From contig CM043800.1 of NCBI GenBank assembly GCA_023974075.1, positions 35,466,459-35,530,458 of the forward strand: 64,000 bases of DNA. The letters are read 5' to 3'. Shown one piece after another: positions 14,519 through 64,000 of the stretch. Within the stretch, counting starts at the first letter, position 1, and each line of letters begins with the position of its first letter. The translations under genes were made by a program, and so were the position numbers. Under the pieces are notes generated by a model. That model saw only the letters and a list, made by a program, of their open reading frames with translations, was not told the origin of the DNA and ran no database searches. The stretch is from Chaenocephalus aceratus. Taxonomy: Eukaryota > Chordata > Actinopteri > Perciformes > Channichthyidae.

Positions 14519-16035
<1,517 letters not shown>

Positions 16036-17323: not shown

Positions 17324-17379
17324 GTCTCGCTTTATTCCAGCGTCGCAAACATGTTCTCTTCAGAACATGCCTGCGGTTG

Positions 17380-17859: not shown

Positions 17860-17912
17860 CAGAGCTGGAAGTTCCTTCTCCGGCTCGAATTGTGTTCCCG
17901 CTGCCTCGAGAG

Positions 17913-21274: not shown

Positions 21275-21754
21275 GTGACCTATAGTTTTCCCCTGACGGG
21301 AGCGAGCAGGGCTGGAGCACTGGACGCGCACAGCAGGTTGCAACTGGATCAGCTCAAAGAGGTGTGTGATGAAGCTAAAGTCTCAAGTGGAAATGGCATT
21401 ACAAGGCGAGCATTAATAAGACTAATAACAGAATCCGTGGATAATGTAATAAATTATGAAGAAGAGGATATTTCAATGTATCATCTAAGGAAATTGCTAA
21501 AACTCATTGAGCAAATAATGAAAAATACTGGCAACAGTGATGATATGGATACAACACAGAGCAAAGCACAGAACAGCCAGCAAACAGCTGAAGAGTTGAG
21601 TTTGGCTGAAAAATATTCACAGCTTCAGCTAAACAGTCAAGCGCTGCATGATGAGGTTAGAAGACTGAGTGAGAGAGTGAACAGCACACCATTAAGTCAG
21701 GCTTTTAGTGCACATGGCTTTCATGTGGCACTTCTCTTTTTAAAAGTGGTGTAA
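21275..21754 (+). pseudogene. Exon-like ORF of unknown protein (unit 2)
   Basis: Same 159 codons as 6562-7041, opening at a GTG within the DIRS repeat. Downstream exon-like pieces are again at 21985-22082 and 24663-24875. Confidence 0.5.
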
Positions 21755-21984
21755 ATAATACATAATATTGTACCTTCTTAGCCAGAGAACGTAAGCTAGC
21801 TATTAACTTTCTTATTCAATTAAGTTGGGATAACATTAGCTTCAATAAGTTATGTGACAATGGTCATCATTAAACATCAGAATGACTGAACTGACTTGAC
21901 ACTACTGTGAACCTGCTAACATTGAAATATCCTGAACAGGATCAGGGTGTAATTAATAATAAAGGCTATTCTTCTGTCTAACAG

Positions 21985-22082
21985 GTGAGATGGCTGACAA
22001 TTAAGAAAACAGAGTTCAGTGAGGAAGAGAGCCGGCTTGGTCTTCAACAGGATGCCAGGATCACATTTGATCCTGTTTAAAG
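21985..22082 (+). pseudogene. Exon-like segment (unit 2)
   Basis: Counterpart of 7272-7369 with the same AG/GT borders and 31 codon frame ending in TAA. Confidence 0.4.
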
Positions 22083-22387
22083 GTAAGTGCTTACAATTTT
22101 GTATGTTTTAAATAAACACAAGCAAATAGTGCAAATTAAATCACAATATCTTAATTTATAATCCCAACATTGCTTCCCATGGGAATCTTAACTCCAAAAA
22201 GTTACTTTTTACTGGCAGTATTAACATTTAAAGCTAGGGGGGGGAAAAGCTATGCAATTATTTAAGATAAGATAATTTTGTAATATTTGGTAACATTTTC
22301 TAAATATTTATTCATCAATAAATAAGCCACTTACAAAAGTCAAATGTGAGTGTTTAAAACAAAAGAAGTCTGTAACAGGCATATGCC

Positions 22388-22432
22388 AGAGTCTGTAACA
22401 GGCATATGGTGTATATGCCTGTTACAGACTCT
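22388..22432. repeat. Perfect 20 bp hairpin (unit 2)
   Basis: Counterpart of 7676-7720; both arms unchanged. Confidence 0.85.
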
Positions 22433-24662: not shown

Positions 24663-24875
24663 GGAAACAAACGTTTGTGAAACGCAGCTGGACGTCGGCG
24701 GAAAGTGCTGCTGTGGAACAACACTTGGGTTACGAAATGGACAATCAAGAACCAGGTTCCAGGGAAAGATGCATGTGAGGATTGTATCTCTGCCGAACCT
24801 CAAGCCCTAACAAATAGGGACTGGGGAGCCGTTAAGTATTACATGAACATTACAATTTCTGCTCTCCGAATGTAA
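24663..24875 (+). pseudogene. Frameshifted fish-family C-terminal domain (unit 2)
   Basis: Counterpart of 9951-10163 with the same one-base frame shift between KRSWTSAESAAVEQHLG and QVPGKDACEDC. Confidence 0.6.
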
Positions 24876-25790
24876 ATGAAATAAAATTGAACCAAGGAAA
24901 AATACGTTCAATGTTGAAAGAAGGATTTCAAGTACCACTACCAAAACTAGGGGCTTTACCTAAACCAAACCAAATTCTCATCTTTAAATCGTCAACTAAT
25001 ATAAATTAAAGGGAAATCAATTGCATTCCGATTATGCTGCTAGAAAAAATCATCCATGTTTTCAAAGATTTCCTATTTTGCTTTTAGGGTTTTCCCTCTC
25101 CTGTAGTGTAGAACATATCTTTTTGTGCATGTAAATGTTTTTCAAAGTCTAAAATCCCTCATTGAAGCATGGAAACATTTCACAGGAGAGAAACTTTATA
25201 CAAATTTGAACCTCAAAATGACCAGAATATGTCCTTGTTAAATGTAACTCAAAAGGAGGTAAAAGTCTACTGAGTTGTTAGGCCTGTTTGTTTTGTTTTT
25301 TGGGTCATGGGATTGGTCAAGTTGTACATTTTGTTTTAACGATATAGAAACACCCCAATAATATACAAATAAATATTTATTGCATTAAAAGAATGTTGTA
25401 GAGAGTTTATATTAATTATACTTTTTTCTCAAGAATTACTAATAGTTGCCTCTAAGAAAAAACAATGTTGAACGAAAAGGATCTTTAGGGGATTATTGAT
25501 TTGGTCTCCATGGTGTTTCAATGTTACTGCCATGTCTACTGTCTAGTTATATTCTATGTTAAGATGAGGCTAATCACCTAAGTAATGACTTATCTTACCA
25601 GAAATGTGAATTTGTTGGTGTAAAAAATATCAAAGTAGAATGTAAATGTTCATGATGCTGTTCTGCAGTTTCTTTGGTAACAAGGAAAGTCCATTCAACT
25701 CAATAATGTCTCTAGTAACTCTGATCCCTTCCAAGATATGAAAACTAGAAATATGTGTGTGTCTGATCCCTTCCAAGATATGAAAACTAG

Positions 25791-29590: not shown

Positions 29591-32382
<2,792 letters not shown>

Positions 32383-32919: not shown

Positions 32920-34229
<1,310 letters not shown>

Positions 34230-45116: not shown

Positions 45117-47140
45117 TTGACTGTCATGATGACAGAGAAGTTGAGGGTAAAATGTTAAACAGAAACATTTCCATTTTTGAATCCACTTAATTTATCTATA
45201 AGCTATAAATACACAATATAATTATGGTTTGGATGCCAAATAAAGGATTTAGCCCTAGAAATGATTTATTGGTATGAAGCTGTACAGTATATGATGCTTG
45301 ATATAGCACCACTTTGTCAAACTCATCTCTAAATAAAAACATCAATCATTTAAATTAGGTTGCTATGGAGTCATTTCTCACAGTGAGTGTTTCTGCTCCT
45401 TTTAGTTTGCCTAAAAAAACTAAAACATTTGCGACTCATAACTTTGTAAAGGTTTGAATCCACCTCTCAAAGTTGGCTTGTGTTTCTCGGTCAGATTGCA
45501 CAGGTAAACAGGTCCCCTCTATATTTAGATGTGTGCTCACAGTATCTCACAGCTGTGGGTTTCTCAGCATCTGTTACCTAAAAACTAAATTCAGATAGGA
45601 AGGGAGAGGCTGATCTGAAAAAAACAAGGTATCTTTATAAACATTTTTAAAAGTCGCTTTCAATAAATAGCTAGAAAGCAGTTGGAGGAAGTCCTCAGAT
45701 TCTTCACACAAAGGTATCAAAACAACAATGAAATAATACTGCTGTCAGTAACATTTAGTTTAAGTAGATAAGTATTTCTAGACAAATGAATGTAATGTAT
45801 CAAAAGTAAAAGGTACACATTGTACAGAATAGTCCATACTAGAGTATTAAGTTGAAGAGTCCAGAAATATAAAACTTTAGAGTTGTTGTGAGACAAGTTA
45901 CATCTTAATCCTTGTTATTAGTAAATGTTGATATCATGTGAATCCCAGCATATCTTTGCACAACTCTTCCCTAAATATAGTTTTGCAGCCATATGAAATA
46001 CGTTTGTGGTTAAGCATAGTGTTTTCATCTATAATAATGCAAAGTAAATAATTTTTGTAATACGAAATACAGTTAAATATTTAGTTTTTCAAATGTAGTG
46101 GATTAGAAGTATGAAGTAACATTAATGGTACATAATTAAATTAGGTTGATGTACATGTGGCTCTAACCCACAGCACCTCACACTCAGTGACATTGCACTC
46201 ATTTACAATGTCTTTATTTACTATCGATTACATCTGTATTTATCTATATATGTTTAAACCCTGCAACCACATATTGGTTCTGGAAATTAATTGAAACTAA
46301 TGCGCTTTGATTACTATGTATTTGCACTTTCTGGTTGGATTGCAAACTGTATTTCGTTGTACTCTGTGCAATGACAATAAGTTTAATCTAATATACATTA
46401 ACATTATCCTTAAGTACAGTATTTGAGTAAATGTCAGAAGTTAGAAAGCACTTTGCAACAGGAAAATGTAAGAGCTTATATATTATGCATTACTAAGAAC
46501 ATGTTAAAAATGATAATGGCACAAACTACTGCCGTCAATGCAATACAACACAAGTACTTATATTGGAAACAAGAGGCAAGGCAACCAAAACTAAATAAGT
46601 AAAACTAAACAATTATTAAAGAAATACCTAATAACACAAAAAGATACAAATTCACCAAGCCTGAGTTGTTTCACAGAACAGATATAATTTAGAATAATGG
46701 GTCATACATTGTTCAGCCCCCACTGGGCATATGAAGCAGCATTTTGTATTTTATTTAACCACTATTAATGGTCTTATATTTATAATATATATATATTGCA
46801 GAACTGTTTTTTTTGTTAATGCAGATAGAAGAGATGGTGAAGTGATGACTCATTTATCAAATTAATAATAATAACTTTATGGAAATACTTTTTGAAAGTT
46901 GCTTTCCTTGATATATTAATATTTTATAACTTTATTAATTGTCCATTCACAATTCTTATCTCCGAGACCTGCTGAAAACCTCAAAAGATTGTTTAGACAA
47001 GTCATCTAATTAAGTTCTATTAATTAGTCAAACCATATTTAATAGTGATACAATAATAATTGTAAAAACAAAACAATGGTTTATTTCAAACCCTTTTTCT
47101 TATTTTACTATAAAAATAAAACAATTGTTATAGAGAGTCC
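45117..47140. other. Old trypsinogen spacer, no gene
   Basis: 45117-45580 and 47041-47140 match the minus-gene spacers (1846-2280 and 2495-2570). The 1.45 kb between them is AT-rich, without a partner in the other spacers and without a convincing ORF. Confidence 0.65.
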
Positions 47141-47159
47141 ACATGAAAGAAATGTGTGC

Positions 47160-47530
47160 ATTTGTTTCTTTATTAGTCCACATTGGGTATAGCCAAAGTG
47201 CTTTACATAAAGTAAAATACTTTACAATAAGGACACTTTACAACAAATACAACAGCACAGTTTGTACAGAATATCAGTATGAGAAAACTACACCCTCTGT
47301 CCTTAGACCCTCACATCGTACAAGGGGAAAACTTCCAGAGAAAAACCCACAGTTTAAAGGGGAACATGGGAGAAACCTCAGGGAGAGCAACAGAGGAGGG
47401 ATCCCTCTCCCAGGACGGACAGACGTGCAATAGATGCCTTGTGTAAATCGAAGAGATAATACATTTTACAGCATATAGACCGAATGTTAGGAAATGCATG
47501 TGTCTATAATAAGAAGATGAATCCACGAGG
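47160..47530 (-). mobile_element. Teleost retroposon copy (inverted)
   Basis: Reverse complement of 50850-51200: shared cores GGGATCCCTCTCCCAGGACG, ACCCTCACATCGTACAAGG and GATGAATCCACGAGGAT. No coding capacity is visible; probably a 3' end of a non-LTR element. Confidence 0.65.
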
Positions 47531-48245
47531 ATGTCAACAATCCTGTGGGAAACCATCAGTCAACTAAAACACTGCCATTCAAGCACATCTTTTAAAACTG
47601 AGCATCCTATCACAAATGCCACCGTTCAACAACAACAACAACAACACACTCTAGTTTCCAAATCTTCCCAAACACAGCATGGATTTTGAATCTTCAGACT
47701 GCACCTGTTCTTGTTAATCTTCTTCATGTCACTCATGCATATTTATCATGTTAATTGAAGCTGCTCTGCTGTTACATCAAAGCAGCCAAATGTAACTCAG
47801 GTTGATTCAAGCTTCACCAGCAGCAGATTTGCACAGAATTCAACACACAATTGACTGCGTTATTGTGCAGAATTCTTCAATATTAAATGGTCTTTTATAC
47901 TTCCATGTAATGATCTTAATTGTTAAATAACACTTTTGACCCTACCATCTTTTATAATGCAAGTAAAATGCAGTTTTTTGAGTATATTTTCTGATAGTAA
48001 TTGTGATCGAGTGATTTAATTTTTTTTTGTGTTTGCATCTTGTCTCTTCACTTTATCAACATTTTGTTAGGGTCATTCTATCTAAAGACACGTGGTTTGG
48101 TTTTCTTGTGAAAGCCAAATCCAATAACTGTGGTTGTGAACCAAACCATCTGCACACCAGCAAATGTAAAAGTTGTATAAATAATACAATTTCCTGGCAG
48201 GCAGTATATCGACCACAATACCTGGAGTTACTTTTCCCAGAGCCC
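47531..48245. other. Upstream region of trypsinogen E, no gene
   Basis: AT-rich with a short CAA run (47627-47645). No gene seen. Not similar to the spacers of the minus-strand copies. Confidence 0.6.
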
Positions 48246-48349
48246 TGATTGGTCACAAAAAACCTTTGGGGCGTGTACAGGATGGAAAGATGAGCATATA
48301 AACCAGGTCTGCAGGTGAAGGCTATCATCGACAGAATCACTCAGCAACC
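48246..48349 (+). promoter_or_regulatory. Trypsinogen E promoter
   Basis: CCAAT-type GATTGGTC at 48247, TATAAA at 48297-48302, then the same leader as the other copies (CAGGTCTGCAGGTGAAGGC, with E-box) to the ATG at 48350. The promoter appears intact although the gene is damaged. Confidence 0.7.
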
Positions 48350-49572
<1,223 letters not shown>

Positions 49573-49689
49573 GTCTGATCCTGCGACCATTTTACTCTGC
49601 TGCCTTTCTTCCATCATTCCATCTTTCATCATAACTCCACCATTGTTGTTGAGTTTTGAATAATGTGCAATCTGAGTAAATAAAATCCT

Positions 49690-50440
49690 ATACCTTGACT
49701 TTTAAATCGTGTTTTCCTCAGTTTGTTGTTTGTGTTTGTGTACATCATATCTTCTTCGGAGTAGTATAATGTTTACTGGGATTTTTGGGATACAGTAAAA
49801 ACAAGGCAATTACTACTATCTTATATAGATACAAAGGTTTAACTCTCCTAAATTGATTTCTTTATCAACAACAATACATATTTGTCCAGTGTACCTTATT
49901 ATTAGATTTAGATATTCAGCAACTGGCTAGGGAACACAACTAAGGGATCCAAACAAGAAAATTCATTCCAACAGCTCAACATAATCTGGATCCATTAGTA
50001 ATATGACAAATTAACAATTTGGAATAATATCCAAGAATTAATTATAAAGCTGGAGTGTGAAAAAAACATCACGGTGGCCAATACCAGACCACCAACTGGT
50101 CCAATCCATCTCACTGGATGACTTGTGGCAGGTATTGTCGATAAGATTGTCGATAAGATCTCAAATGCTTAAGTACAGTTTACTGGACCCACTATCGTTG
50201 CAAATTGGACTGCATTTTTTTCAATGTTCGTGCTTTATTGCCATGCCATGCCGTGGGTTATTAACAGGATTGCAACAGTTCACATTGCGAGTATAATATT
50301 TCTCTCTCTCAGCAGGACTCACATTTCACCGCATGGAAATTGAAATTGAAATATCACATTCCTTAATGTATGTCATGTTAAATCTGTCGTTAAGCGAGAT
50401 CTAAAAAAGGGGGAGCAGGTCTGATTGGGGGTCAAATCGT
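49690..50440. other. Intergenic, no gene
   Basis: AT-rich. A retroposon-like stretch begins near 50400. No ORF with recognisable content. Confidence 0.6.
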
Positions 50441-51335
50441 ACCACAGCCTGGGAGCTGCTACAGCAAAAACCCTGTCCCCTACTGGTTCAACCTTGACCT
50501 CCAACTACAAGGAGAAATATCTCAGTAGACCTCAGTGACCTTGAGGATGTATAGGATTGTAGAAGTTTTGCCAGGTAAGGCAAGGCAAGGCAAGTTTATT
50601 TATATAGCACTTTTCCCCTAGTTTTGCTGATATAGGCTTAGTTTGTCGGGGGACATCTTACTTCTTCCTTCTCTCTGTCTATACCTGTGTACTCTCATGT
50701 TCCGATTAACCCACCTTCCCCAAATTTCTTTCTTTTGGTGTCTATATACGCCGGGATCCGGAGTCATGGATGATCCTGCGGTCCTGTGTCCTGGATCGCG
50801 AGCCCTTGATCGCGGTCGTGGCTGTGGTCCTGGATCATCGGTCCTGGATGGATATCCTCGTGGATTCATCTTCCTATTATACACACATGCATTTCCAAAC
50901 ATTTGGACTACCTATGTTGCAAATGTATTATCTTTTCAATTTACACACGGCATCTATTGCATGTCTGTCCGTCCTGGGAGAGGGATCCCTCCTCTGTTGC
51001 TCTCCCTGAGGTTCTCCCATTTTTCCCTTTAAACTGTGGGTTTTCTTCGGAAGTTTTTCCTTGTACGATGTGAGGGTCTAAGGACAGAGGGTGTCGTATT
51101 GTCATACTGATATTCTGTACACACTGTGAAGACCACTGAGACAAATGTAACATTTGTGATATTGGGCTATATAAATAAACATTGATTGATTGATTGATTT
51201 TCAACACAAGGCAATTCAAAGTGCTTTACAAAAAAAAAAGGTAAGGTGGGCCAAACCATTAAGAGCTTTGTAGGCAAACAATACCATTTTAAATTTGATT
51301 CTAAACTTTATCGTTAGCCAGTGTAGAGATGCGAG
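50441..51335. mobile_element. Nested retroposons
   Basis: A common teleost repeat (GGCAAGTTTATTTATATAGC at 50589 and its partner GGCAATTCAAAGTGCTTTAC at 51209) is split by a second repeat, 50640-51200, that matches 47160-47530 in reverse. The inner one ends in a TTGATTGAT run (51180-51200). Confidence 0.65.
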
Positions 51336-51414
51336 TACAGGTGAGTAGTGATACAAATGCCATGTCAATCTCATTAGTATGCAGAGAAAGTGACAGGTCG
51401 CCCCGCCCCTTTTT

Positions 51415-51523
51415 GACCGGAAGTCCCGCCTTTTTATTTTATTTTGAAAACCGGAAGTCCCGTCTCATTATACCGGAAGTCCCGAATCGTTCGACCGGAT
51501 GTACAGCCACCGCTTCCGGTTTA
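51415..51523. promoter_or_regulatory. Cluster of ACCGGAAGT (ETS-type) motifs
   Basis: ACCGGAAGTCCCG occurs at about 51417, 51450 and 51472, with a variant ACCGGATGT at 51495 and the inverse TTCCGGT at 51514. CCGGAAGT is the core of ETS/GABP sites. It lies about 400 bp upstream of the first small basic ORF. A regulatory role is inferred. Confidence 0.45.
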
Positions 51524-51782
51524 CAAAAAAAAATTAAAATTAAATTAAAATTAAAAAAATGAGAAAAATTAAATGCAGTTGTTTTCAATCAATTAATATA
51601 CATAGGATATATATCCCGCCTCCTAACCACTTCCTGTGTGGTTAATCCTGTATATAGTATTGAATGTAACTTGCAAATAACATGAAATTAATCTAAAGTA
51701 AAGCATCTAAAAAAATGTATATTTAAACCTCTCTATTTTTGCGAACAGGACAGGGGGGAGAAAACATATGGTGGAGGAGGGG

Positions 51783-51821
<39 letters not shown>

Positions 51822-51900
51822 TCCCCGCCCATCACCCCCTCTCCCTCTGTCTAAATAAAAAGCCAGCTTCACTCTTAAATATTTCTCAAGTCGAGAGAAA

Positions 51901-52065
51901 ATGGCCAAGAGACGTCTTGATATGAATTTAATCAGCGAGACACCGGTGACAACTTACAACCATCCGTTGGGTGCTCCAATCAAGAAACGAATGAAGTTTG
52001 TATGCCGGGTTCAGACGCCGACAGCCGAAGAACTTCGCCTCTCTGTTTTTGCGAACAGGACATGA
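51901..52065 (+). CDS. Small basic protein ORF, copy a (54 aa)
   Basis: ATG in the good context GAAAATGG, about 45 bp downstream of a TAAATAAAAAG box. Encodes MAKRRLDMNLISETPVTTY and then a basic KKRMKF stretch, a plausible nuclear localisation signal. The last residues run into the next repeat unit and are probably not original. The paralogue at 52193 shares about 80% of residues over 44 positions, and both third-position and replacement changes are seen, so the frame is probably real. Family unknown. Confidence 0.5.
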   Translation: MAKRRLDMNLISETPVTTYNHPLGAPIKKRMKFVCRVQTPTAEELRLSVFANRT

Positions 52066-52192
52066 GGGGAGAGACCATATGGTGGGCCGAGGGGAGGGGG
52101 AACACACACACACACACACACACACTTTCCCCACCCCTCACCCCATCTCCCCTTAGAGGTTGTTTAAATAAAAGCCAGCGTCTCTTGTGGCC

Positions 52193-52342
52193 ATGAGACG
52201 TCTTGATATGAGTTTAATCAGCGAGACACCGGTGACAACTTACAGCCATCCGTTGGATGCTCCAATCAAGAAACGAATGCAGTTTGTATGCCGGGTTGAG
52301 ACGCCTACAGCCGAAGATATGCTTCAGTCTCCTCTGTCTTGA
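52193..52342 (+). CDS. Small basic protein ORF, copy b (49 aa)
   Basis: Paralogue of 51901-52065, also beginning RRLDM and with PIKKRMQFVCRV. It ends in DMLQSPLS with its own stop. Possibly the first exon of a longer gene, because an acceptor-like site lies at 53339, but no clear donor is seen. Confidence 0.5.
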   Translation: MRRLDMSLISETPVTTYSHPLDAPIKKRMQFVCRVETPTAEDMLQSPLS

Positions 52343-53330
52343 AGGCATTCTTAAGCACATAAATGTAACATTAGGCTATGCATAAAATAACCAAACGATT
52401 ATTACATTAACTAATTTGAACAGTAATTCACATCATCATCTCATAACAAAATAAGCTAAGGCAACTACTTGCATTCACTGACTTGATTTTTTAAATGAAA
52501 ACCAGGGATATCTTTTGTTTTGCGGTCCATATCTCATTAAAAATATCTAATGTTAGTAACTATTAAAGAAAGAATGGGGACAATTCTGTGTTAATGTAGT
52601 TTGACCATTGTAACTGCTGTGCAGACATACTGATAAAATAGGGCTTCTAACTAATTACCTTAAATAAAATCACTAATTAATTAAACCAGTTCAATACGCA
52701 TTATTCTTATTCTTATCATTCTTTATGAGCGCAGTAACGGTAAGGTATCTAATTACTTATTTATCTAGTATTCCATCACATAATAACAGAGATGGTCAAA
52801 CTGAAGTAGAGACATGGCAGAAATCCTACAATGAAGCAGGACAGTGAAGGGGAAGTCTCTTTTGAAGAGGGTTTTAATAGTTTAAAGATCTTAATGCCCC
52901 CTTGATCATATCTTTTTTAAAAAGACTGTTTCTCTAAAAGGCAGGTTTTGTGATTTTTAAGACTTTTTACAGACACTCGGCAGATTTGTGTGTAATTCTC
53001 TCACAAAGGAACAGTAAGTCTCTTACTTTTTTGATAGCGTTTTTTATGTATGACAACTTTACAACTGGTAGAAAGTTAAGTACTTTTTTCTGAGCAGATT
53101 TTCTTTAAGACTGTGACTCTTAACACACCAACCCCCCGAGAGACAGACATACTCATCCCCTTTTCAACGTATTTTGTTTTTGTCTTTCTCGCTTTTTTTT
53201 TTTCCATTATATTTTTGGAAAAAACTACATAGTGATTGCTAGCAAAAAACAACATGCAACTAATACATTATACAATATTACGACTTTTGGCGATATTTTC
53301 AACACAATATACTTGTACCCTTTTTTTTTT
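52343..53330. other. AT-rich region entering the palindrome, no gene
   Basis: No convincing ORF. The palindrome is demonstrable from 52932 because the window ends at its partner base. Whether the arm continues leftward cannot be seen here. Confidence 0.6.
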
Positions 53331-53350
53331 TTTTTGTAGGACTTCAAGAT

Positions 53351-53491
53351 ATGTTGCATGTCATGCATAAACACGGTGTCATCTTTCTTGAAACTGACGT
53401 GCTGTCCGTTTATGTTTATGCTTCTTCATCCTCTGAATGTTCCTCCCCCGTCCCTCTTCACAATAACAATCAAGGTGGATCTGTGAAATGA
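53351..53491 (+). CDS. Possible terminal exon or small ORF (46 codons), left arm
   Basis: A 15-base T tract ending GTAG (53339) looks like a splice acceptor. The open frame then reads MLHVMHKHGVIFLETDVLSV and a Ser-rich tail before TGA. Composition is balanced, unlike the AT-rich surroundings. No family recognised and no matching donor was identified. Confidence 0.3.
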   Translation: MLHVMHKHGVIFLETDVLSVYVYASSSSECSSPVPLHNNNQGGSVK

Positions 53492-54486
53492 AACACCTCT
53501 TCCCAAAGCGTGACTACCCTATTGAGGGCATGCGTCTAAGGCAGTAGGGTCTAAATCGATGGGCCAGATATACTACCATGCAGAACGTACGGTATGTTTG
53601 AAAAAGACTAACCATTTATCCAGTTCAAGCTGTCTTTTAAGATGTGACATCGCGCTCTGACTATTTCCCATAAAATCGTGACAAACTATTACTTGTTCTT
53701 ACATTTGACCTCTTGCTGCTTGGTTGAAAATGATAGATGAAAAAGAACTTTTTTAAAAAGAGTCAAACCACAAATGTTTTTAAGATTGTTACAAAATGTA
53801 AAAAATAAAAAAGGTCTGGAGACAAAATTAATTCAGGTGACTCTGGCTTTATTAGGACAACAAACATATAATACAAATGGGTTAGGGGTTAAATATAACC
53901 ATCGTGGACTTAATAGTCTAACAAAATACTTTTATCTGAATAAATTGTTCTTTTTAAGAGCACTTTTTGAAATTATTTATTTATTATTTCAGTGGAACAA
54001 TCCAGTGTTTGTTAACATTAACGCTTTCTTCTCTTTTTCTTGTGTTACTAAGATACTTTTAAACACACTTTGGTGTATGCAACACTTGTTCAGATAAACA
54101 AGGTTTTTTCTTTTCTGATAAACTTACATATTTTAGTTATTTTATGTTACCAAGATACTTTGAGATACACCCTGATGTACGCAACACTTAACAAAGGGTA
54201 TAATATGAAGTAGTTGGTAAGGAAGGGGTTTTTCTTTAAGGGTGCAAAACTTTAGAACAGGGTAAAATATTCATTAATTTGTATTGAATTGAGTTTTTTT
54301 TTTTTTTGATTTTCAACATACTATATGACTTTTACATATTTCTGACGTACTATACTTTTTTGACTTTTTTCTGTAGAATCTTGACAAAACTATTACTTGT
54401 TCTTAAATGATGACCTATTGCTGGAGATGAGATGAAAAAGCTACAACGCTTAAAGAACTTTTTTCTAAAAACTCTCAATTCTACAC

Positions 54487-54578
54487 TGACTCCCCCCACT
54501 CAACGCAATAAGTCCCACCCCACTCAGCAAATCATCTAAAACGAAGGACCCCACCAAGACGACCGTTGAAAACTAGCC
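54487..54578 (+). promoter_or_regulatory. Shared promoter-like module 1
   Basis: CACTCAACGCAATAAG, CCCACC, CACTCAGCAAATCAT, then TAAAACGAAGGAC (TATA-like) and a leader ending AAACTAGCCATGG. The same blocks in the same order precede the ORFs at 55807 and 57554. Confidence 0.7.
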
Positions 54579-54776
54579 ATGGATCTGAGAAAAACCAAGT
54601 CTGATGTAGCCTACCTTTATTATCACCAGGATAATGGATATGGGCTTAATGACTGGATGGTACAAAGTAGGGGAGAGGATGTTCCCGAAGAAGAGCTCTC
54701 CTCTATATGTAATAGTATTGTAAACGAAACATTTAAAGTGGTCCAGGAATCTTCATTTTTCAGAAACATTCTGTAA
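54579..54776 (+). pseudogene. Chimeric 65 aa ORF, left arm
   Basis: The first about 46 codons copy the start of the 362 aa gene (MDLRKTKSDVA, then HQDNGYGLNDWM). From NSIVNETFKVV the sequence copies the middle of the 154 aa gene, stopping after SSFFRNIL. It is thus a fusion of two neighbours by recombination. It keeps an intact promoter module and good start context, and the identical copy in the right arm is also open, so a short product is possible. No known function. Confidence 0.6.
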
Positions 54777-55714
54777 CATTACCGAATAAATTACACTTAC
54801 TCTTTTTCTTGTGTTACCAAGATACTTTTAGATACAGTTTGGTGTCTGAAAACTGAAACTGGTTGAATATGAAGTACTTTATAAGGAATTCGGATTCTTT
54901 TAAAGGCAGATTTTGGCTTTTTTCTCTTTGCCAAGATACTTTTAGACACACTTTGAGGGATGCAAAACCTTAAAACTAGAAAATGAAGTACAGTCTGATT
55001 AGATTTTTTCTTAAAGACTGTTTCTCTAAAAGGTAAGTTTATGATTTTAACAATTTTCCCTGACACTTTAAGATTTGTGTGTAATTCTCTCACAACGGAA
55101 CTGTAAGATACACTTTTTATGTATGCAAAACCTTAAACTTTTTTTTTTTTTTTTTGAAAATAAAATACTTTGTCTGAATACATTTTTCTTTAAAGGCACT
55201 TTTTTTTATTTTAACGCTATTTCAGTGGAAAAATACAGTTTTGTTGACATCAAGGCTTTTTTCTCTTTTCTTGTGTTACTAAGATACTTTTAGACACACT
55301 TTGATGTATGCAACACTTGTTCAGTTAAATAATGGTTTTTTTTTTCTGATAAACTTACATATTTTAGTTATTTTATGTTACCAAGATACTTTGAGATACA
55401 CCCTGATGTACGCAACACTTAACAAAGGGTATAATATGAAGTACTTGGTAAGGAAGGGGTTTTTCCTTAAGGGTGCAAAACTTTAGAACAGGGTAAAATA
55501 TTCATTAAATTGTATTGAATTGAGTTTTCTTTTTTGATTTTCAACATACTATTTGTACACAATGACTTTTCCATATTTCTGATAAACTATACTTTTTCCG
55601 TAAAATCATGACAAACTATTACTTATTCTTAAATTTCACCTATTGCTGGAGATGAGATGAAAAAGCTACAACTCTTAAAGAACTTTTTTTCTAAAAACTA
55701 TCAATTCTATAATT

Positions 55715-55806
55715 GACTCCCCCATTCAACGCAATGAGCCCCACCCTCCACTCAGAAAATCATCTAAAACGAAGGACCTCGCTAAGACGATCATTGTAAA
55801 CTAGCC
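55715..55806 (+). promoter_or_regulatory. Shared promoter-like module 2
   Basis: ATTCAACGCAATGAG, CCCACC, CACTCAGAAAATCAT, TAAAACGAAGGACC and AAACTAGCCATGG, as in module 1 with about ten differences. Serves the 187/154 aa pair. Confidence 0.7.
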
Positions 55807-56370
55807 ATGGAGCAGAGAAAAGCCAAGACTCCCCCCGCGAGTTGCAGTCAGGAACAGCGTCTACCAGCAACACCACCATGTGGGAAACCCGAATCTTGCA
55901 GTACTACTGCTGCTGATGCTACTCCTCGGGTCAAGAAGTCTCGGTTTAGGGACACAGTGAAATCGGAGTTGTTTTATATTCTGGAGATGGTGATGTATCG
56001 GTACAGAAAAGAAATCTGCAAAGAATGCCGACGCAGTAACCCCGACCAGAGGCAACACGATTGTCGGAATGACATGCCCGATTTCTTCTTCAGAAACAAT
56101 TACAATGCGTTAATGAAAAGACTTTGGCTCGCCGACTTCGTTGCAGTGATTGACCAGAGTCTTATTGAAAAAGGCATTTGCGAGGATAAACTGAGGATAG
56201 GACGCGCTTCGGAAGCTTTTCTGCACAAGCTTGTAAAATGCAGATGCCTCAAGGAGAGACTTGAAATATCCATACAGAGTTGGATGGAGAAGAAGAAGAC
56301 TAACAAACAACAGTCGGATGGAGAAGAAGCCAGGGACTTGTTCAATGCAGTGACTTTTTTCTTTAAGTAA
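55807..56370 (+). CDS. Unknown 187 aa protein with Cys/His cluster, left arm
   Basis: Intron-less ORF starting at ATG in context GCCATGG just after a promoter module. Residues 1-45 are Pro/Ser/Thr-rich and probably disordered; 46-160 look helical. A cluster CKECRR...QRQHDC at about 73-88 (C-x2-C-x9-H-x-C) could bind zinc. The C-terminus is Lys-rich (MEKKKTNKQQ). The stop is 7 bases before the next ATG, and AATAAA overlaps the gap, so the pair could be one bicistronic mRNA. The mirror copy translates identically, which over 564 bases argues for recent copying or conversion. I do not recognise the family; no signal peptide or membrane helix. Confidence 0.65.
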   Translation: MEQRKAKTPPASCSQEQRLPATPPCGKPESCSTTAADATPRVKKSRFRDTVKSELFYILEMVMYRYRKEICKECRRSNPDQRQHDCRNDMPDFFFRNNYNALMKRLWLADFVAVIDQSLIEKGICEDKLRIGRASEAFLHKLVKCRCLKERLEISIQSWMEKKKTNKQQSDGEEARDLFNAVTFFFK

Positions 56371-56377
56371 AATAAAA

Positions 56378-56842
56378 ATGGGAAACTACTTTGCAAAACG
56401 CTCTGTATATATTGATCATAATGTAGTCATTACCCGTTTAATAAATGTGGTGATGGGGACGATTGAAAACAGAACGAGTAGTGACCCCTGTGTAAAAAGA
56501 ATGGCTGAAGTTTGTAAACTACAAGACATTTTGGATATCGTTCGTTCTGGCAGTACTATTCCGGGTCATTGGGAAACGCTTGTAAACGAAACATTTAAAG
56601 TGGTCCTGGAATCTTCATTTTCCGAAACATTCTGTAACATTATCTCAGAAATGAAACAAACATCAAAAGTGTATCATGTGCTCTCATTGTATGCTCTGTT
56701 TGTAGATGTAATGCATCTGTGTGTTGAAAACAGCATACACGTGAATATTTTGACTGAAGTGAAAAAACTCCATCACGATATCTCCAATAATATGGGGAAT
56801 TCTAAGCTGGAGACTGTCCTGGGGATGCTACAATCAGTATAA
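56378..56842 (+). CDS. Unknown 154 aa helical protein, left arm
   Basis: ATG follows the preceding stop by 7 bases. It begins MGNYFAKRS: Gly2 with a basic cluster is a possible N-myristoylation signal. The rest is predicted mainly helical, with NETFKVVLESSFSETF and a hydrophobic helix VYHVLSLYALFVDVMHLCVE near residues 107-126. An all-helical fold such as Bcl-2-like proteins could be compared, but I see no clear BH motif and make no such claim. AATAAA at about 56866 would end the transcript. The mirror copy is identical. Fragments occur in the 65 aa chimera and in the palindrome spacer, so this gene has been a recombination hot spot. Confidence 0.65.
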   Translation: MGNYFAKRSVYIDHNVVITRLINVVMGTIENRTSSDPCVKRMAEVCKLQDILDIVRSGSTIPGHWETLVNETFKVVLESSFSETFCNIISEMKQTSKVYHVLSLYALFVDVMHLCVENSIHVNILTEVKKLHHDISNNMGNSKLETVLGMLQSV

Positions 56843-57000
56843 CTATTGATTTTGTGGGTGAAAAAATAAAAAAAGTGTTCTTTACATCTAAAAACTGTTG
56901 TCATCAATAGCAAGGGGAGCGTATCTGATACATGTGTATTACAGTCCTTCTTGTTGTGTTTTTCAGTGTTTTCTGTGTGTCTGTACACACAAAGCACACT

Positions 57001-57430
57001 TCATTATCTACTTTTCAGCTTCTTTAAAAAGAAAAGTGTATCTTTCGGTAACTTTCTCAGAGAATTTAAGCATAAATATGTCAAATGTTCAAAACAGCCT
57101 TGTTTCACTGAAATACCCTCAAAATGACAAACTGCCATTAAGAGTCAGATTCTTAACCAAATCTACTGAAACAAAGTCCTTCATTATCTACTTTTCAGCT
57201 TTTAATACAAAAGTGTATCTTTCGGTAACCTTCTTGAGAGAATTAAGCATAAATCTGTCAAAGATTCTTAACGAAATCTACTGACACAAAGTCTACTTCA
57301 TTATCTACTTTTCAGCTTTTTTAAAAAGAAAGTGTATCTTTCGGTAACTTTCTCAGAGAATTTAAGCATAAATCTGTCAAATGTTCAAAACAGCCTTGTT
57401 TCACTGAAATACCCTCAAAATGACAAACTG
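57001..57430 (+). repeat. Three AT-rich tandem repeats, left arm
   Basis: TCATTATCTACTTTTCAGCT begins units at about 57000, 57180 and 57296. Each goes on to GTGTATCTTTCGGTAAC and a TTAAGCATAAAT.TGTCAAA block. The first and third share a further 70 bases (CAGCCTTGTTTCACTGAAAT). They lie just upstream of promoter module 3 and could be an enhancer or replication-related repeat. The mirror image is at 59502-59931. Confidence 0.8.
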
Positions 57431-57474
57431 CCATTATTACGAAATCTCCTCAAACAGAGTACTTTCTACAGATG

Positions 57475-57553
57475 AAGCCTTCCCACTCAACGCAATATGT
57501 CCCACCCACTCAGCAAATCATATAAAACTAAGGACGACCGTTAAAAACTAGCC
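57475..57553 (+). promoter_or_regulatory. Shared promoter-like module 3
   Basis: CACTCAACGCAATATG, CCCACC, CACTCAGCAAATCAT, ATAAAACTAAGGAC (the best TATA match of the three) and AAACTAGCCATGG. Confidence 0.75.
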
Positions 57554-58642
57554 ATGGATCTGAGAAAAACCAAGTCTGATGTAGCCTGCCCTTATTATCA
57601 CCAGGATAATGGATATGGGCTTAATGACTGGATGTTACAAAGTAGGGGAGAGGATGTTCCCGAAGAAGAGCTCTCGTGTATATCATATCCATGTAAGGTC
57701 TTTAGGACAAAAGAGGACCATGATAACATGACATATGAAGAATATCTTTCTTTAAAAGATGGTATTATAGATAACCTTTATAGAAACAGTATATCTCATG
57801 CCACTCGCCAAGATCGCAAACGACAATTAGCAGAAAAGAATAGAAAAAGTAAAGAAAAACGAAGAAAAAGCAACATGAAAAGGAGAAGAAAAATTAAAAG
57901 CAAACGCAGAATGCGAATGAAAAGAAAAGGGACCATAGGACGCAAAACTAAAAAGACAAAAAGAAGGAAGGTGAAAAGAAAAAGAAACAAAGTGAAGAAA
58001 TTTAAACTAGAGGATGATATTGTAGAGCCATTACCGGATCATAATAATCTTATAGATCATCTCCCGCTAACCGACTGCTGCGAATGTCTTGAACAAATAC
58101 CAAAAGCAATGGCAGAACTTTGCTTCAGTATAATGAGAGAAAAAGCGCGATACTGTGGAATTGCCCAAATTGGCGACAGTGCCAGAATATGTATTAAAAA
58201 ACTGTTGGAGGATCTCTATTCTAGTGTCGGTTGTCATTACAGCGAAGGATACGCCAAAACGTGTGACGACATAGACAAAGCTTTTGAAGACAATTATATG
58301 GTACCTGTCCTTACAGCTAAACAAATCCTACGCCAGGTATTCAACAGACCACAAGAAGCACAAGAAGTCCCAGAAAGGATTACATTCAGAGCTAATAATG
58401 GAGAAACCGAAGAAGAAGCAAAGCAGATTATAATCGTTGCGGGTGAAAGGATAGAGAATTTACATGTGATGTTAATGCATTTATCTGATATAAAAAATGC
58501 TTTCGTATACTTCCAAGAGACCCCTAAACATCTACTTGGGCTGTGTGAATTGAACGACAAACCGATCACTGTCAATGAAACGCGGAGAGAAGCAGCAGTG
58601 CAAATCGTTAAGTCTATTACCTTGTATGCACTACGACATTAA
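57554..58642 (+). CDS. Unknown 362 aa protein with long basic centre (only complete copy)
   Basis: Intron-less. Residues 1-85 are acidic to neutral (MDLRKTKSDVACPYY, EDVPEEELSC, TYEEYLSLKDG). Residues 89-152 are almost half Lys/Arg (for example NMKRRRKIKSKRRMRMKRKG), consistent with nuclear or nucleic-acid-binding function. A short acidic linker leads to a C-terminal domain from about 175 (CCECLEQIPK, then AELCFSIMREKARYCG and ENLHVMLMHLSDIKNAF), helical with several Cys. The palindrome arm ends at residue 186, so the C-terminal domain exists once. The right-arm copy is truncated and frameshifted. A TTAAA/poly(A)-like region follows at 58690. The family is unrecognised; a DNA-binding or virion-core-like role is only suggested by composition. 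Confidence 0.65.
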   Translation: MDLRKTKSDVACPYYHQDNGYGLNDWMLQSRGEDVPEEELSCISYPCKVFRTKEDHDNMTYEEYLSLKDGIIDNLYRNSISHATRQDRKRQLAEKNRKSKEKRRKSNMKRRRKIKSKRRMRMKRKGTIGRKTKKTKRRKVKRKRNKVKKFKLEDDIVEPLPDHNNLIDHLPLTDCCECLEQIPKAMAELCFSIMREKARYCGIAQIGDSARICIKKLLEDLYSSVGCHYSEGYAKTCDDIDKAFEDNYMVPVLTAKQILRQVFNRPQEAQEVPERITFRANNGETEEEAKQIIIVAGERIENLHVMLMHLSDIKNAFVYFQETPKHLLGLCELNDKPITVNETRREAAVQIVKSITLYALRH

Positions 58643-58821
58643 CTTGGTAAAATGTAATATGTTTTCTATGAATTGTGTTGAATGTTGTGTTTTTTCAATT
58701 AAACAACCATTACACAATGAAAATGTGTTTTATTTTTTTTGCTTTCATATATAGTAATAGTATTGTAAACGAAACATTTATAGTGTATCATGTGCTTTCA
58801 TTGTATGCTCTGTTTTTTTGA
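58112..58821. other. Palindrome spacer (710 bp, unique)
   Basis: Holds the last 176 codons of the 362 aa ORF (to 58642), an ATTAAA/poly(A)-like region (58690-58735), and at 58755-58812 a scrambled remnant of the 154 aa gene: TGTAAACGAAACATTTA joined to AGTGTATCATGTGC, which are 60 bp apart in the real gene. Confidence 0.85.
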
Positions 58822-59377
58822 CATTGCTTTTGGTATTTGTTCAAGACATTCGCAGCAGTCGGTTAGCGGGAGATGATCTATAAGATTATTATGATCCGGT
58901 AATGGCTCTACAATATCATCCTCTAGTTTAAATTTCTTCACTTTGTTTCTTTTTCTTTTCACCTTCCTTCTTTTTGTCTTTTTAGTTTTGCGTCCTATGG
59001 TCCCTTTTCTTTTCATTCGCATTCTGCGTTTGCTTTTAATTTTTCTTCTCCTTTTCATGTTGCTTTTTCTTCGTTTTTCTTTACTTTTTCTATTCTTTTC
59101 TGCTAATTGTCGTTTGCGATCTTGGCGAGTGGCATGAGATATACTGTTTCTATAAAGGTTATCTAAAACCATCTTTTAAAGAAAGATATTCTTCATATGT
59201 CATGTTATCATGGTCCTCTTTTGTCCTAAAGACCTTACATGGATATGATATACACGAGAGCTCTTCTTCGGGAACATCCTCTCCCCTACTTTGTAACATC
59301 CAGTCATTAAGCCCATATCCATTATCCTGGTGATAATAAGGGCAGGCTACATCAGACTTGGTTTTTCTCAGATCCAT
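58798..59377 (-). pseudogene. Truncated, frameshifted copy of the 362 aa gene, right arm
   Basis: Starts at 59377 with the same first residues. Two bases are missing at about 59162 (GGTTTTAGA against GGTATTATAGA), so the frame ends after LSLKDGFR. The remainder, open from 59172, keeps the basic centre and ends at the palindrome border with unrelated residues (SKKQSIQ). It lacks the whole C-terminal domain. Confidence 0.75.
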
Positions 59378-59378
59378 G

Positions 59379-59457
59379 GCTAGTTTTTAACGGTCGTCCT
59401 TAGTTTTATATGATTTGCTGAGTGGGTGGGACATATTGCGTTGAGTGGGAAGGCTTC
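59379..59457 (-). promoter_or_regulatory. Shared promoter-like module 3, right arm
   Basis: Mirror of 57475-57553, unchanged. It drives only a broken gene. Confidence 0.65.
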
Positions 59458-60091
59458 ATCTGTAGAAAGTACTCTGTTTGAGGAGATTTCGTAATAATGG
59501 CAGTTTGTCATTTTGAGGGTATTTCAGTGAAACAAGGCTGTTTTGAACATTTGACAGATTTATGCTTAAATTCTCTGAGAAAGTTACCGAAAGATACACT
59601 TTTCTTTTTAAAAAAGCTGAAAAGTAGATAATGAAGTAGACTTTGTGTCAGTAGATTTCGTTAAGAATCTTTGACAGATTTATGCTTAATTCTCTCAAGA
59701 AGGTTACCGAAAGATACACTTTTGTATTAAAAGCTGAAAAGTAGATAATGAAGGACTTTGTTTCAGTAGATTTGGTTAAGAATCTGACTCTTAATGGCAG
59801 TTTGTCATTTTGAGGGTATTTCAGTGAAACAAGGCTGTTTTGAACATTTGACATATTTATGCTTAAATTCTCTGAGAAAGTTACCGAAAGATACACTTTT
59901 CTTTTTAAAGAAGCTGAAAAGTAGATAATGAAGTGTGCTTTGTGTGTACAGACACACAGAAAACACTGAAAAACACAACAAGAAGGACTGTAATACACAT
60001 GTATCAGATACGCTCCCCTTGCTATAATGATGACAACAGTTTTTAGATGTAAAGAACACTTTTTTTATTTTTTCACCCACAAAATCAATAG

Positions 60092-60556
60092 TTATACTGA
60101 TTGTAGCATCCCCAGGACAGTCTCCAGCTTAGAATTCCCCATATTATTGGAGATATCGTGATGGAGTTTTTTCACTTCAGTCAAAATATTCACGTGTATG
60201 CTGTTTTCAACACACAGATGCATTACATCTACAAACAGAGCATACAATGAGAGCACATGATACACTTTTGATGTTTGTTTCATTTCTGAGATAATGTTAC
60301 AGAATGTTTCGGAAAATGAAGATTCCAGGACCACTTTAAATGTTTCGTTTACAAGCGTTTCCCAATGACCCGGAATAGTACTGCCAGAACGAACGATATC
60401 CAAAATGTCTTGTAGTTTACAAACTTCAGCCATTCTTTTTACACAGGGGTCACTACTCGTTCTGTTTTCAATCGTCCCCATCACCACATTTATTAAACGG
60501 GTAATGACTACATTATGATCAATATATACAGAGCGTTTTGCAAAGTAGTTTCCCAT
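60092..60556 (-). CDS. Unknown 154 aa helical protein, right arm
   Basis: Mirror copy of 56378-56842 with identical translation (MGNYFAKRS start, CVENSI helix end). Its start is 7 bases after the stop of the 187 aa gene. Confidence 0.65.
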   Translation of the reverse strand: MGNYFAKRSVYIDHNVVITRLINVVMGTIENRTSSDPCVKRMAEVCKLQDILDIVRSGSTIPGHWETLVNETFKVVLESSFSETFCNIISEMKQTSKVYHVLSLYALFVDVMHLCVENSIHVNILTEVKKLHHDISNNMGNSKLETVLGMLQSV

Positions 60557-60563
60557 TTTTATT

Positions 60564-61127
60564 TTACTTAAAGAAAAAAGTCACTGCATTGAACAAGTCC
60601 CTGGCTTCTTCTCCATCCGACTGTTGTTTGTTAGTCTTCTTCTTCTCCATCCAACTCTGTATGGATATTTCAAGTCTCTCCTTGAGGCATCTGCATTTTA
60701 CAAGCTTGTGCAGAAAAGCTTCCGAAGCGCGTCCTATCCTCAGTTTATCCTCGCAAATGCCTTTTTCAATAAGACTCTGGTCAATCACTGCAACGAAGTC
60801 GGCGAGCCAAAGTCTTTTCATTAACGCATTGTAATTGTTTCTGAAGAAGAAATCGGGCATGTCATTCCGACAATCGTGTTGCCTCTGGTCGGGGTTACTG
60901 CGTCGGCATTCTTTGCAGATTTCTTTTCTGTACCGATACATCACCATCTCCAGAATATAAAACAACTCCGATTTCACTGTGTCCCTAAACCGAGACTTCT
61001 TGACCCGAGGAGTAGCATCAGCAGCAGTAGTACTGCAAGATTCGGGTTTCCCACATGGTGGTGTTGCTGGTAGACGCTGTTCCTGACTGCAACTCGCGGG
61101 GGGAGTCTTGGCTTTTCTCTGCTCCAT
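60564..61127 (-). CDS. Unknown 187 aa Cys/His protein, right arm
   Basis: Mirror copy of 55807-56370 with identical translation, including CKECRR...QRQHDC. Followed at once by the 154 aa gene. Confidence 0.65.
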   Translation of the reverse strand: MEQRKAKTPPASCSQEQRLPATPPCGKPESCSTTAADATPRVKKSRFRDTVKSELFYILEMVMYRYRKEICKECRRSNPDQRQHDCRNDMPDFFFRNNYNALMKRLWLADFVAVIDQSLIEKGICEDKLRIGRASEAFLHKLVKCRCLKERLEISIQSWMEKKKTNKQQSDGEEARDLFNAVTFFFK

Positions 61128-61219
61128 GGCTAGTTTACAATGATCGTCTTAGCGAGGTCCTTCGTTTTAGATGATTTTCTGAGTGGAGGGTGGGGCTCAT
61201 TGCGTTGAATGGGGGAGTC
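61128..61219 (-). promoter_or_regulatory. Shared promoter-like module 2, right arm
   Basis: Mirror of 55715-55806; start context AAACTAGCCATGG kept. Confidence 0.65.
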
Positions 61220-62155
61220 AATTATAGAATTGATAGTTTTTAGAAAAAAAGTTCTTTAAGAGTTGTAGCTTTTTCATCTCATCTCCAGCAATAGGTGAAA
61301 TTTAAGAATAAGTAATAGTTTGTCATGATTTTACGGAAAAAGTATAGTTTATCAGAAATATGGAAAAGTCATTGTGTACAAATAGTATGTTGAAAATCAA
61401 AAAAGAAAACTCAATTCAATACAATTTAATGAATATTTTACCCTGTTCTAAAGTTTTGCACCCTTAAGGAAAAACCCCTTCCTTACCAAGTACTTCATAT
61501 TATACCCTTTGTTAAGTGTTGCGTACATCAGGGTGTATCTCAAAGTATCTTGGTAACATAAAATAACTAAAATATGTAAGTTTATCAGAAAAAAAAAACC
61601 ATTATTTAACTGAACAAGTGTTGCATACATCAAAGTGTGTCTAAAAGTATCTTAGTAACACAAGAAAAGAGAAAAAAGCCTTGATGTCAACAAAACTGTA
61701 TTTTTCCACTGAAATAGCGTTAAAATAAAAAAAAGTGCCTTTAAAGAAAATGTATTCAGACAAAGTATTTTATTTTCAAAAAAAAAAAAAAAAGTTTAAG
61801 GTTTTGCATACATAAAAAGTGTATCTTACAGTTCCGTTGTGAGAGAATTACACACAAATCTTAAAGTGTCAGGGAAAATTGTTAAAATCATAAACTTACC
61901 TTTTAGAGAAACAGTCTTTAAGAAAAAATCTAATCAGACTGTACTTCATTTTCTAGTTTTAAGGTTTTGCATCCCTCAAAGTGTGTCTAAAAGTATCTTG
62001 GCAAAGAGAAAAAAGCCAAAATCTGCCTTTAAAAGAATCCGAATTCCTTATAAAGTACTTCATATTCAACCAGTTTCAGTTTTCAGACACCAAACTGTAT
62101 CTAAAAGTATCTTGGTAACACAAGAAAAAGAGTAAGTGTAATTTATTCGGTAATG

Positions 62156-62353
62156 TTACAGAATGTTTCTGAAAAATGAAGATTCCTGGACCACTTTAAA
62201 TGTTTCGTTTACAATACTATTACATATAGAGGAGAGCTCTTCTTCGGGAACATCCTCTCCCCTACTTTGTACCATCCAGTCATTAAGCCCATATCCATTA
62301 TCCTGGTGATAATAAAGGTAGGCTACATCAGACTTGGTTTTTCTCAGATCCAT
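62156..62353 (-). pseudogene. Chimeric 65 aa ORF, right arm
   Basis: Mirror copy of 54579-54776 with identical translation, including the fusion point before NSIVNETFKVV. Confidence 0.6.
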
Positions 62354-62445
62354 GGCTAGTTTTCAACGGTCGTCTTGGTGGGGTCCTTCGTTTTAGATGA
62401 TTTGCTGAGTGGGGTGGGACTTATTGCGTTGAGTGGGGGGAGTCA
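62354..62445 (-). promoter_or_regulatory. Shared promoter-like module 1, right arm
   Basis: Mirror of 54487-54578. Confidence 0.65.
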
Positions 62446-63440
62446 GTGTAGAATTGAGAGTTTTTAGAAAAAAGTTCTTTAAGCGTTGTAGCTTTTTCAT
62501 CTCATCTCCAGCAATAGGTCATCATTTAAGAACAAGTAATAGTTTTGTCAAGATTCTACAGAAAAAAGTCAAAAAAGTATAGTACGTCAGAAATATGTAA
62601 AAGTCATATAGTATGTTGAAAATCAAAAAAAGAAAACTCAATTCAATACAAATTAATGAATATTTTACCCTGTTCTAAAGTTTTGCACCCTTAAAGAAAA
62701 ACCCCTTCCTTACCAACTACTTCATATTATACCCTTTGTTAAGTGTTGCGTACATCAGGGTGTATCTCAAAGTATCTTGGTAACATAAAATAACTAAAAT
62801 ATGTAAGTTTATCAGAAAAGAAAAAACCTTGTTTATCTGAACAAGTGTTGCATACACCAAAGTGTGTTTAAAAGTATCTTAGTAACACAAGAAAAAGAGA
62901 AGAAAGCGTTAATGTTAACAAACACTGGATTGTTCCACTGAAATAATAAATAAATAATTTCAAAAAGTGCTCTTAAAAAGAACACATTTATTCAGATAAA
63001 AGTATTTTGTTAGACTATTAAGTCCACGATGGTTATATTTAACCCCTAACCCATTTGTATTATATGTTTGTTGTCCTAATAAAGCCAGAGTCACCTGAAT
63101 TAATTTTGTCTCCAGACCTTTTTTATTTTTTACATTTTGTAACAATCTTAAAAACATTTGTGGTTTGACTCTTTTTAAAAAAGTTCTTTTTCATCTATCA
63201 TTTTCAACCAAGCAGCAAGAGGTCAAATGTAAGAACAAGTAATAGTTTGTCACGATTTTATGGGAAATAGTCAGAGCGCGATGTCACATCTTAAAAGACA
63301 GCTTGAACTGGATAAATGGTTAGTCTTTTTCAAACATACCGTACGTTCTGCATGGTAGTATATCTGGCCCATCGATTTAGACCCTACTGCCTTAGACGCA
63401 TGCCCTCAATAGGGTAGTCACGCTTTGGGAAGAGGTGTTT

Positions 63441-63581
63441 CATTTCACAGATCCACCTTGATTGTTATTGTGAAGAGGGACGGGGGAGGAACATTCAGAG
63501 GATGAAGAAGCATAAACATAAACGGACAGCACGTCAGTTTCAAGAAAGATGACACCGTGTTTATGCATGACATGCAACATA
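63441..63581 (-). CDS. Possible terminal exon or small ORF (46 codons), right arm
   Basis: Mirror of 53351-53491; the acceptor-like T tract is read as an A tract on the plus strand at 63593-63610. Confidence 0.3.
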
Positions 63582-64000
63582 TCTTGAAGTCCTACAAAAA
63601 AAAAAAAAAAGGGTACAAGTATATTGTGTTGAAAATATCGCCAAAAGTCGTAATATTGTATAATGTATTAGTTGCATGTTGTATTTTTGCTAGCAATCAC
63701 TATGTAGTTTTTTCCAAAAATATAATGGAAAAAAAAAAAGCGAGAAAGACAAAAACAAAATACGTTGAAAAGGGGATGAGTATGTCTGTCTCTCGGGGGG
63801 TTGGTGTGTTAAGAGTCACAGTCTTAAAGAAAATCTGCTCAGAAAAAAGTACTTAACTTTCTACCAGTTGTAAAGTTGTCATACATAAAAAACGCTATCA
63901 AAAAAGTAAGAGACTTACTGTTCCTTTGTGAGAGAATTACACACAAATCTGCCGAGTGTCTGTAAAAAGTCTTAAAAATCACAAAACCTGCCTTTTAGAG

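Follow-up and report, generated by a model that had tools for sequence, protein, structure and literature searches.

The last 11 kb of a 64,000-nucleotide stretch of the Chaenocephalus aceratus genome assembly (GCA_023974075.1, contig CM043800.1, positions 35,466,459 to 35,530,458; hereafter "the window") hold a near-perfect palindrome that carries three open reading frames (ORFs) of 187, 154 and 362 amino acids (aa). We propose that a fold-back, in which the DNA at 52.9-58.8 kb would have been written once forward and once reversed, would explain this mirror better than the inverted end of a virus. We tentatively attribute the palindrome to sequencing or assembly; an inverted duplication that took place very recently in the chromosome is about equally likely. 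The folded DNA itself is a fragment of a multi-copy fish DNA family in which copies of one promoter/leader precede intron-less orphan ORFs. To judge from its sequence, segments of the genes and repeats of this family have been shuffled within it, and it is probably virus-derived or otherwise mobile DNA in decay.

Geometry of the palindrome and differences between its arms

A single minus-strand BLASTN alignment of 5191 columns matches the left arm (52932-58117, plus strand) to the reverse complement of the right arm (58816-64000) with 99.73% identity. In a repeat search the same alignment splits at insertions and deletions (indels) into eight inverted pairs (I1-I8), each 99-100% identical. An earlier note on this DNA, made from the letters alone, had described arms at 52932-58111 and 58822-64000 that mirror each other to the window edge, and the alignment bears this out: the inner limits 58111/58822 hold, and the last six columns (58112-58117) contain two mismatches. 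The spacer between the arms is 698-710 bp, in agreement with the 710 bp given by that note. Its description of the spacer as unique DNA stands for most of the length, both against 1-52950 and against the palindromic block itself, and fails at 58741-58815, which repeats a fused joint found at 54695-54740 plus pieces of the 154-aa ORF. The mirroring starts at 52932 because the window ends at 64000, and no natural boundary is marked there. The symmetry centre cuts the 362-aa ORF, which is whole on the left, where it extends into the spacer, and truncated on the right, where the copy is also short of two bases near 59166 and its frame is shifted. About 700 bp separate the two turning points (58821 and 58117). 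The junction shows no clear microhomology (the original continuation past 58821 lies outside the view), and the 3' end of the spacer (58640-58821) does not outperform shuffled sequences in folding.

The arms differ by 4 substitutions and 8 indel events over the 5191 columns. Two of these substitutions are the edge mismatches (58112/58115), one lies within a complex indel at 57763-57767 and one in a T run, which leaves 0-2 internal substitutions. As controls we used four duplicated pairs of the window, out of 16 listed outside the block; these pairs partly overlap and are not independent. Their ratios of substitutions to indels are 4:1, 8:1, 19:4 and 86:11, summing to 117:17. With all counts kept, the 4:8 of the palindrome differs from the 31:6 of the three youngest pairs (p = 0.0019, Fisher) and from the 117:17 of all four (p = 8e-5); without the two edge mismatches, the values are p = 3e-4 and p = 1e-5, respectively. 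Indels occur at 1.5 per kb in the palindrome, at 0.09 per kb in a 10.8-kb control pair and at 0.35 per kb in the three youngest pairs together. Since this indel-rich contrast holds with all counts kept, we conclude that the arms are barely diverged and differ by the type of error typical of long reads. With 0-2 internal substitutions against 8 indels, the two arms behave as one molecule, as a fold-back artefact predicts. The earlier note had raised such an artefact against its own reading, and it would account for arms that differ mainly by indels.

The orphan gene family in the palindrome

The largest ATG-initiated ORFs in 52903-58821 are 362, 187, 154 and 107 aa long. Of 500 first-order Markov shuffles of this interval, one reached an ORF length of 154 aa or more and none a length of 187 aa or more; the three largest ORFs exceed chance length. 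They are compact, intron-less and of unfamiliar type, unlike the trypsin genes nearby, much as the earlier note had it. The AT-richness it reported holds over the greater part of the block (GC content 0.32-0.36, compared with 0.417 in 1-52317), less so over the 187- and 154-aa ORFs (0.41). GC content is already low (0.322) in 52317-52903, with a step near 52317, and the element may start at 52903 or as much as ~590 bp further left. Just left of the block, and adjoining AC microsatellites, is a direct repeat of 130 bp (51902-52031 and 52188-52317; 95% identity, 286 bp apart).

The profile and structure searches that the earlier note had proposed returned no significant match for the three proteins: the best E values were 0.57 in Pfam, 0.16 in PHROGs and 0.056 in NCBIfam, and a sequence search of the PDB gave only E of at least 0.26 (for the 362-aa protein, with its last 193 residues). 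Foldseek found nothing at E <= 0.001 for the 187-aa model against viral models or for the 154-aa model against the PDB, a result that is uninformative at the confidence of these AlphaFold models (mean predicted local distance difference test scores of 45 and 47). IMG/VR scans gave no relative, nor did prokaryote genomes scanned with an alignment of the 154-aa protein. The three ORFs have no detectable relation to one another. By Pfam, no polymerase, capsid, ATPase, integrase or transposase was seen among them, with ~5.9 kb of unique sequence in view; here too the earlier note, which had seen no polymerase, capsid or integrase, was right. The 187-aa protein contains the pattern C-x2-C-x9-H-x-C at residues 71-86, but because one relative (P0007) has no histidine in this pattern, a possible zinc site is a guess. 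The 154-aa protein is predicted with low confidence to be all-helical. A Bcl-2-like reading of it found no support.

We then find that these genes do have relatives. Searching ~5.8 billion proteins (E up to 0.01 for the 362-aa query and up to 1 for the 154- and 187-aa queries), we recovered one relative of the 362-aa protein (from 1967 candidates), three of the 154-aa protein (18 candidates) and four of the 187-aa protein (34 candidates). One of the eight, P0005, is an annotated hypothetical protein on a chromosome of the icefish Champsocephalus esox and aligns with 66% of the 187-aa protein at 94% identity. The other seven are on short contigs of 599-2120 bp and show 59-93% protein identity. 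Query coverage across the relatives is 18-84%; most are shorter than the window proteins or partly different, and the shorter ones may reflect decay or, on the short contigs, contig ends. Homologous copies thus exist elsewhere, as expected of a repeated fish gene family, with the assignment to fish resting on P0005. The genes that the earlier note had called unknown would accordingly form a small multi-copy family, of which the libraries searched contain further copies but no relative that bears a name. A literature search by text, with partial coverage, gave no description of the ORF proteins or of a palindrome at this locus, including in the available portions of PMC11071296, PMC11237817 and PMC11282168.

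Two relatives join these genes differently. By tblastn, with the exact joints read by eye, part of a segment at 53.2-53.6 kb leads directly into other gene pieces: in P0001 into the final part of the 362-aa ORF (near codon 290), and in P0008 into the interior of the 187-aa ORF (near codon 43). Their breakpoints are almost the same, each no more than a few bases from 53641, for which a shared recombination hot spot and an ancestral end are candidates. Splicing was considered as a cause of the joints and, on the translations read by eye, not adopted: P0008 would run into a stop codon, although P0001 might fit GT-AG if small differences are allowed. The block itself is similarly patchy (Table 1). 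One leader/promoter occurs in three copies, upstream of the 187-aa ORF, upstream of the 362-aa ORF and at 54495, where it opens a pseudogene mosaic that is 90% identical to 57482-57683 and 95% identical to 56580-56642. Degenerate ~100-bp repeats with a common core lie between the genes; those at 57.0-57.4 kb are oriented opposite to those at 53.9-55.5 kb. On these comparisons, the block is pieced together from repeats and fragments of genes, which is what decaying mobile or viral DNA would be expected to show. Given the leader copies, the fused fragments and the joints in P0001 and P0008, the gene family appears prone to internal rearrangement. No Rfam match up to E 1 was found in 46000-64000, and no tRNA in the 64-kb window.

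Table 1. Coordinates of the palindrome and of the features within it (window positions).
Feature	Position	Strand	Basis or remark
Outermost detected element-like repeat	52903-53018	+	81% to 54996-55107
Left arm of palindrome	52932-58117	+	BLASTN, 99.73% to reverse complement of 58816-64000
Segment fused to other gene pieces in relatives P0001 and P0008	53232-53652, break near 53641	+	tblastn
Largely non-coding, degenerate ~100-bp repeats, core GTTACCAAGATACTTTTAGATACAC	53920-55535	+	Repeat comparisons
Pseudogene mosaic	54495-54781	+	Leader of 362-aa ORF plus 43 codons, fused to 64 bp of 154-aa ORF
Leader/promoter copy before 187-aa ORF	55721-55806	+	Repeat D12
187-aa ORF	55807-56370	+	Mirror copy 60564-61127
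154-aa ORF	56378-56842	+	Mirror copy 60092-60556
Second repeat array, units oppositely oriented	56987-57436	+	Repeat comparisons
Leader/promoter copy with TATA box (57521) before 362-aa ORF	57482-57553	+	Repeat comparison
362-aa ORF, Lys/Arg-rich stretch at about residues 85-150	57554-58642	+	
Spacer	58118-58815	+	C-terminal half of 362-aa ORF, its 3' tail and mosaic at 58741-58815
Right-arm copy of 362-aa ORF	58798-59172	-	Frameshifted, ends at junction
Right arm of palindrome	58816-64000	-	BLASTN; reaches window edge, outer end beyond view

How the palindrome may have arisen

If the palindrome was made during sequencing or assembly, a long read passing from one strand into its complement would have been built into the repeat-rich trypsinogen locus, and the mirror would merely record one molecule read on both strands. 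In one survey, available to us in part, fold-back reads made up 0.55-0.6% of nanopore genomic reads (PMC12870357). Several points weigh against this explanation, however. Among its few PacBio HiFi samples, the same part of the survey saw almost no fold-backs (PMC12870357), so the sequencing platform would matter. The survey counts a read as an artefact if its two halves map no more than 200 bp apart (PMC12870357, same part), and with turning points ~700 bp apart the palindrome is not a typical read artefact. At four of the eight indel sites, a third copy, a relative or the reading frame indicates which arm is odd: the left arm at three of them (54298-54306, 57329 and, weakly, by one residue of P0001, 53249) and the right arm at one (57763). 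Errors in both arms, unlike those of a simple contig-end artefact, weaken the simplest form of this explanation. Lastly, a true inverted duplication likewise lowers nanopore base-calling accuracy, according to the part of PMC7229812 available, so the indel noise proves no artefact.

The alternative that survives best, and which we regard as a serious contender, is a real and very recent inverted duplication in the fish chromosome, with head-to-head copies, a 0.7-kb spacer and indels added by later sequencing noise. A break or a stalled fork in the repeat-rich trypsinogen locus might have been repaired by strand fold-back or template switching: an end would fold within the AT-rich repeats, prime on itself ~700 bp inside and be copied. 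Both the errors present in the two arms and the poor base calls that nanopores give on real inverted duplications (PMC7229812, in part) are consistent with this history, as are other young duplications in the same window (1-10782 versus 14714-25494, 99.95% identity), unless these are assembly duplicates themselves. On the other hand, at most 2 internal substitutions in 5.2 kb require a very young event or conversion, and the consensus would need to be worse here than in the other duplications compared. The ~700-bp offset, which exceeds the survey's 200 bp for read artefacts (PMC12870357, in part), makes a read artefact less likely and favors a real event, and for this reason we hold the two origins about equally likely.

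A separate question is what the folded DNA was before it was mirrored. It is unlikely, in our view, that the ORFs are ordinary young host genes, that is lineage-specific orphans, rather than viral or mobile DNA. The hypothetical protein annotated on an icefish chromosome and the lack of a viral hallmark gene would suit such an origin; the missing introns, the single promoter/leader in triplicate, the fused gene fragments and the relatives with different junctions argue against it.

Gene-bearing inverted repeats exist in linear double-stranded DNA viruses, and the earlier note had suggested that the arms could belong to a virus-like or giant mobile element of this kind. More broadly, the mirror could be intrinsic to a virus or large transposon, as gene-bearing terminal or internal repeats or as an integrated inverted dimer. 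We consider this improbable. The compact, intron-less orphan ORFs, the shared promoters and the mosaic repeats are in its favor, but no hallmark gene was found among the ORFs searched and no relative in IMG/VR, and the symmetry centre falls inside the 362-aa ORF. Two relatives have other junctions and none of the eight has this one, a weak point given that these are proteins and seven come from short contigs. Viral terminal repeats in particular are disfavored because the symmetry centre cuts this gene, and the suggestion of the earlier note is not supported in this respect. Still more doubtful is the fullest version, in which a real gene-bearing inverted repeat would belong to an undescribed virus-derived notothenioid element family that spreads by self-recombination of promoter/gene modules and landed in the trypsinogen cluster. 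A poxvirus-type concatemer junction was set aside, given the 0.7-kb spacer and the TATA box of the 362-aa ORF; to our knowledge such junctions have no 0.7-kb spacer.

The trypsinogen locus and known systems

The rest of the window is, by its coding motifs, a trypsinogen cluster. Trypsin motifs lie on the minus strand at ~99-883, 14812-15596, 29884-30668 and 33137-34229 and on the plus strand at 48350-49363; Pfam confirmed trypsin at 48703-49047, the sole stretch tested. The signal peptide, MRSLVFVLL, may resemble that of notothenioid trypsinogen. Taken with the 94% match of the 187-aa protein to C. esox, the cluster points to a notothenioid as the probable host. Trypsinogen-bearing tandem units of ~14.7 kb are 99.95% identical over 10.8 kb (1-10782 versus 14714-25494; 4 substitutions and 1 indel) and reflect either a duplication of very recent date or haplotype duplication in the assembly. 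A reverse-transcriptase ORF at 3122-5578, presumably DIRS-like, is repeated at 17835-20291; its first copy, the one tested, matches RVT_1 (E 3.7e-27) and, weakly, an RNase H-like domain. Inverted repeats (47256-47466 and 50921-51128; 113 bp at 89% and 75 bp at 92%) stand on both sides of the plus-strand trypsin gene. Antifreeze glycoprotein genes arose from the trypsinogen gene family, and one paper, to go by its title, reportedly derives an antifreeze gene from a trypsinogen gene. A regular-expression search found no antifreeze-type repeat in the 64-kb window.

Should the palindrome prove an artefact, it would call for caution with other assemblies of trypsinogen clusters. According to the available part of PMC13131655, the notothenioid antifreeze/trypsinogen region, with which we do not equate the window, poses great difficulty for assembly and contains trypsinogens in tandem and numerous transposable elements. 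A real palindrome would be a large one newly formed at a vertebrate locus. In both cases, it exposes an orphan gene family with no named relative in the libraries searched, whose full-length parent may be sought in notothenioid genomes.

Among known systems, Maverick/adintovirus elements are mid-size double-stranded DNA elements of fish genomes with inverted ends, and to this extent resemble the block. Their PolB, retroviral-type integrase, double-jelly-roll capsid and ATPase are, however, not among the three ORFs searched here. Teratorn and related endogenous fish herpesviruses are likewise virus-like genes resident in fish chromosomes (PMC5822658 and PMC5601938, each in part); the words "Notothenia" and "icefish" are absent from the main text of PMC5822658. 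Unlike Teratorn, the ORFs searched here include no herpesvirus core gene or piggyBac transposase, and for the hallmark genes of such elements (polymerase, capsid, terminase) none of the three largest ORFs has a significant Pfam match in the ~5.9 kb in view, beyond which a larger element may extend past 64000. The fold-back, or inverted-duplex, long-read artefact likewise has mirror-image halves of one sequence, which are sometimes separated by intervening sequence (PMC12870357, in part). It differs in that the turning points here, ~700 bp apart, are beyond the 200 bp of that survey (PMC12870357), and in that the read would have entered an assembly. The indels between our arms are nonetheless of the kind that read errors produce. 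Fold-back inverted duplications also occur in chromosomes, and the palindrome, if real, would resemble these in its head-to-head copies and short spacer.

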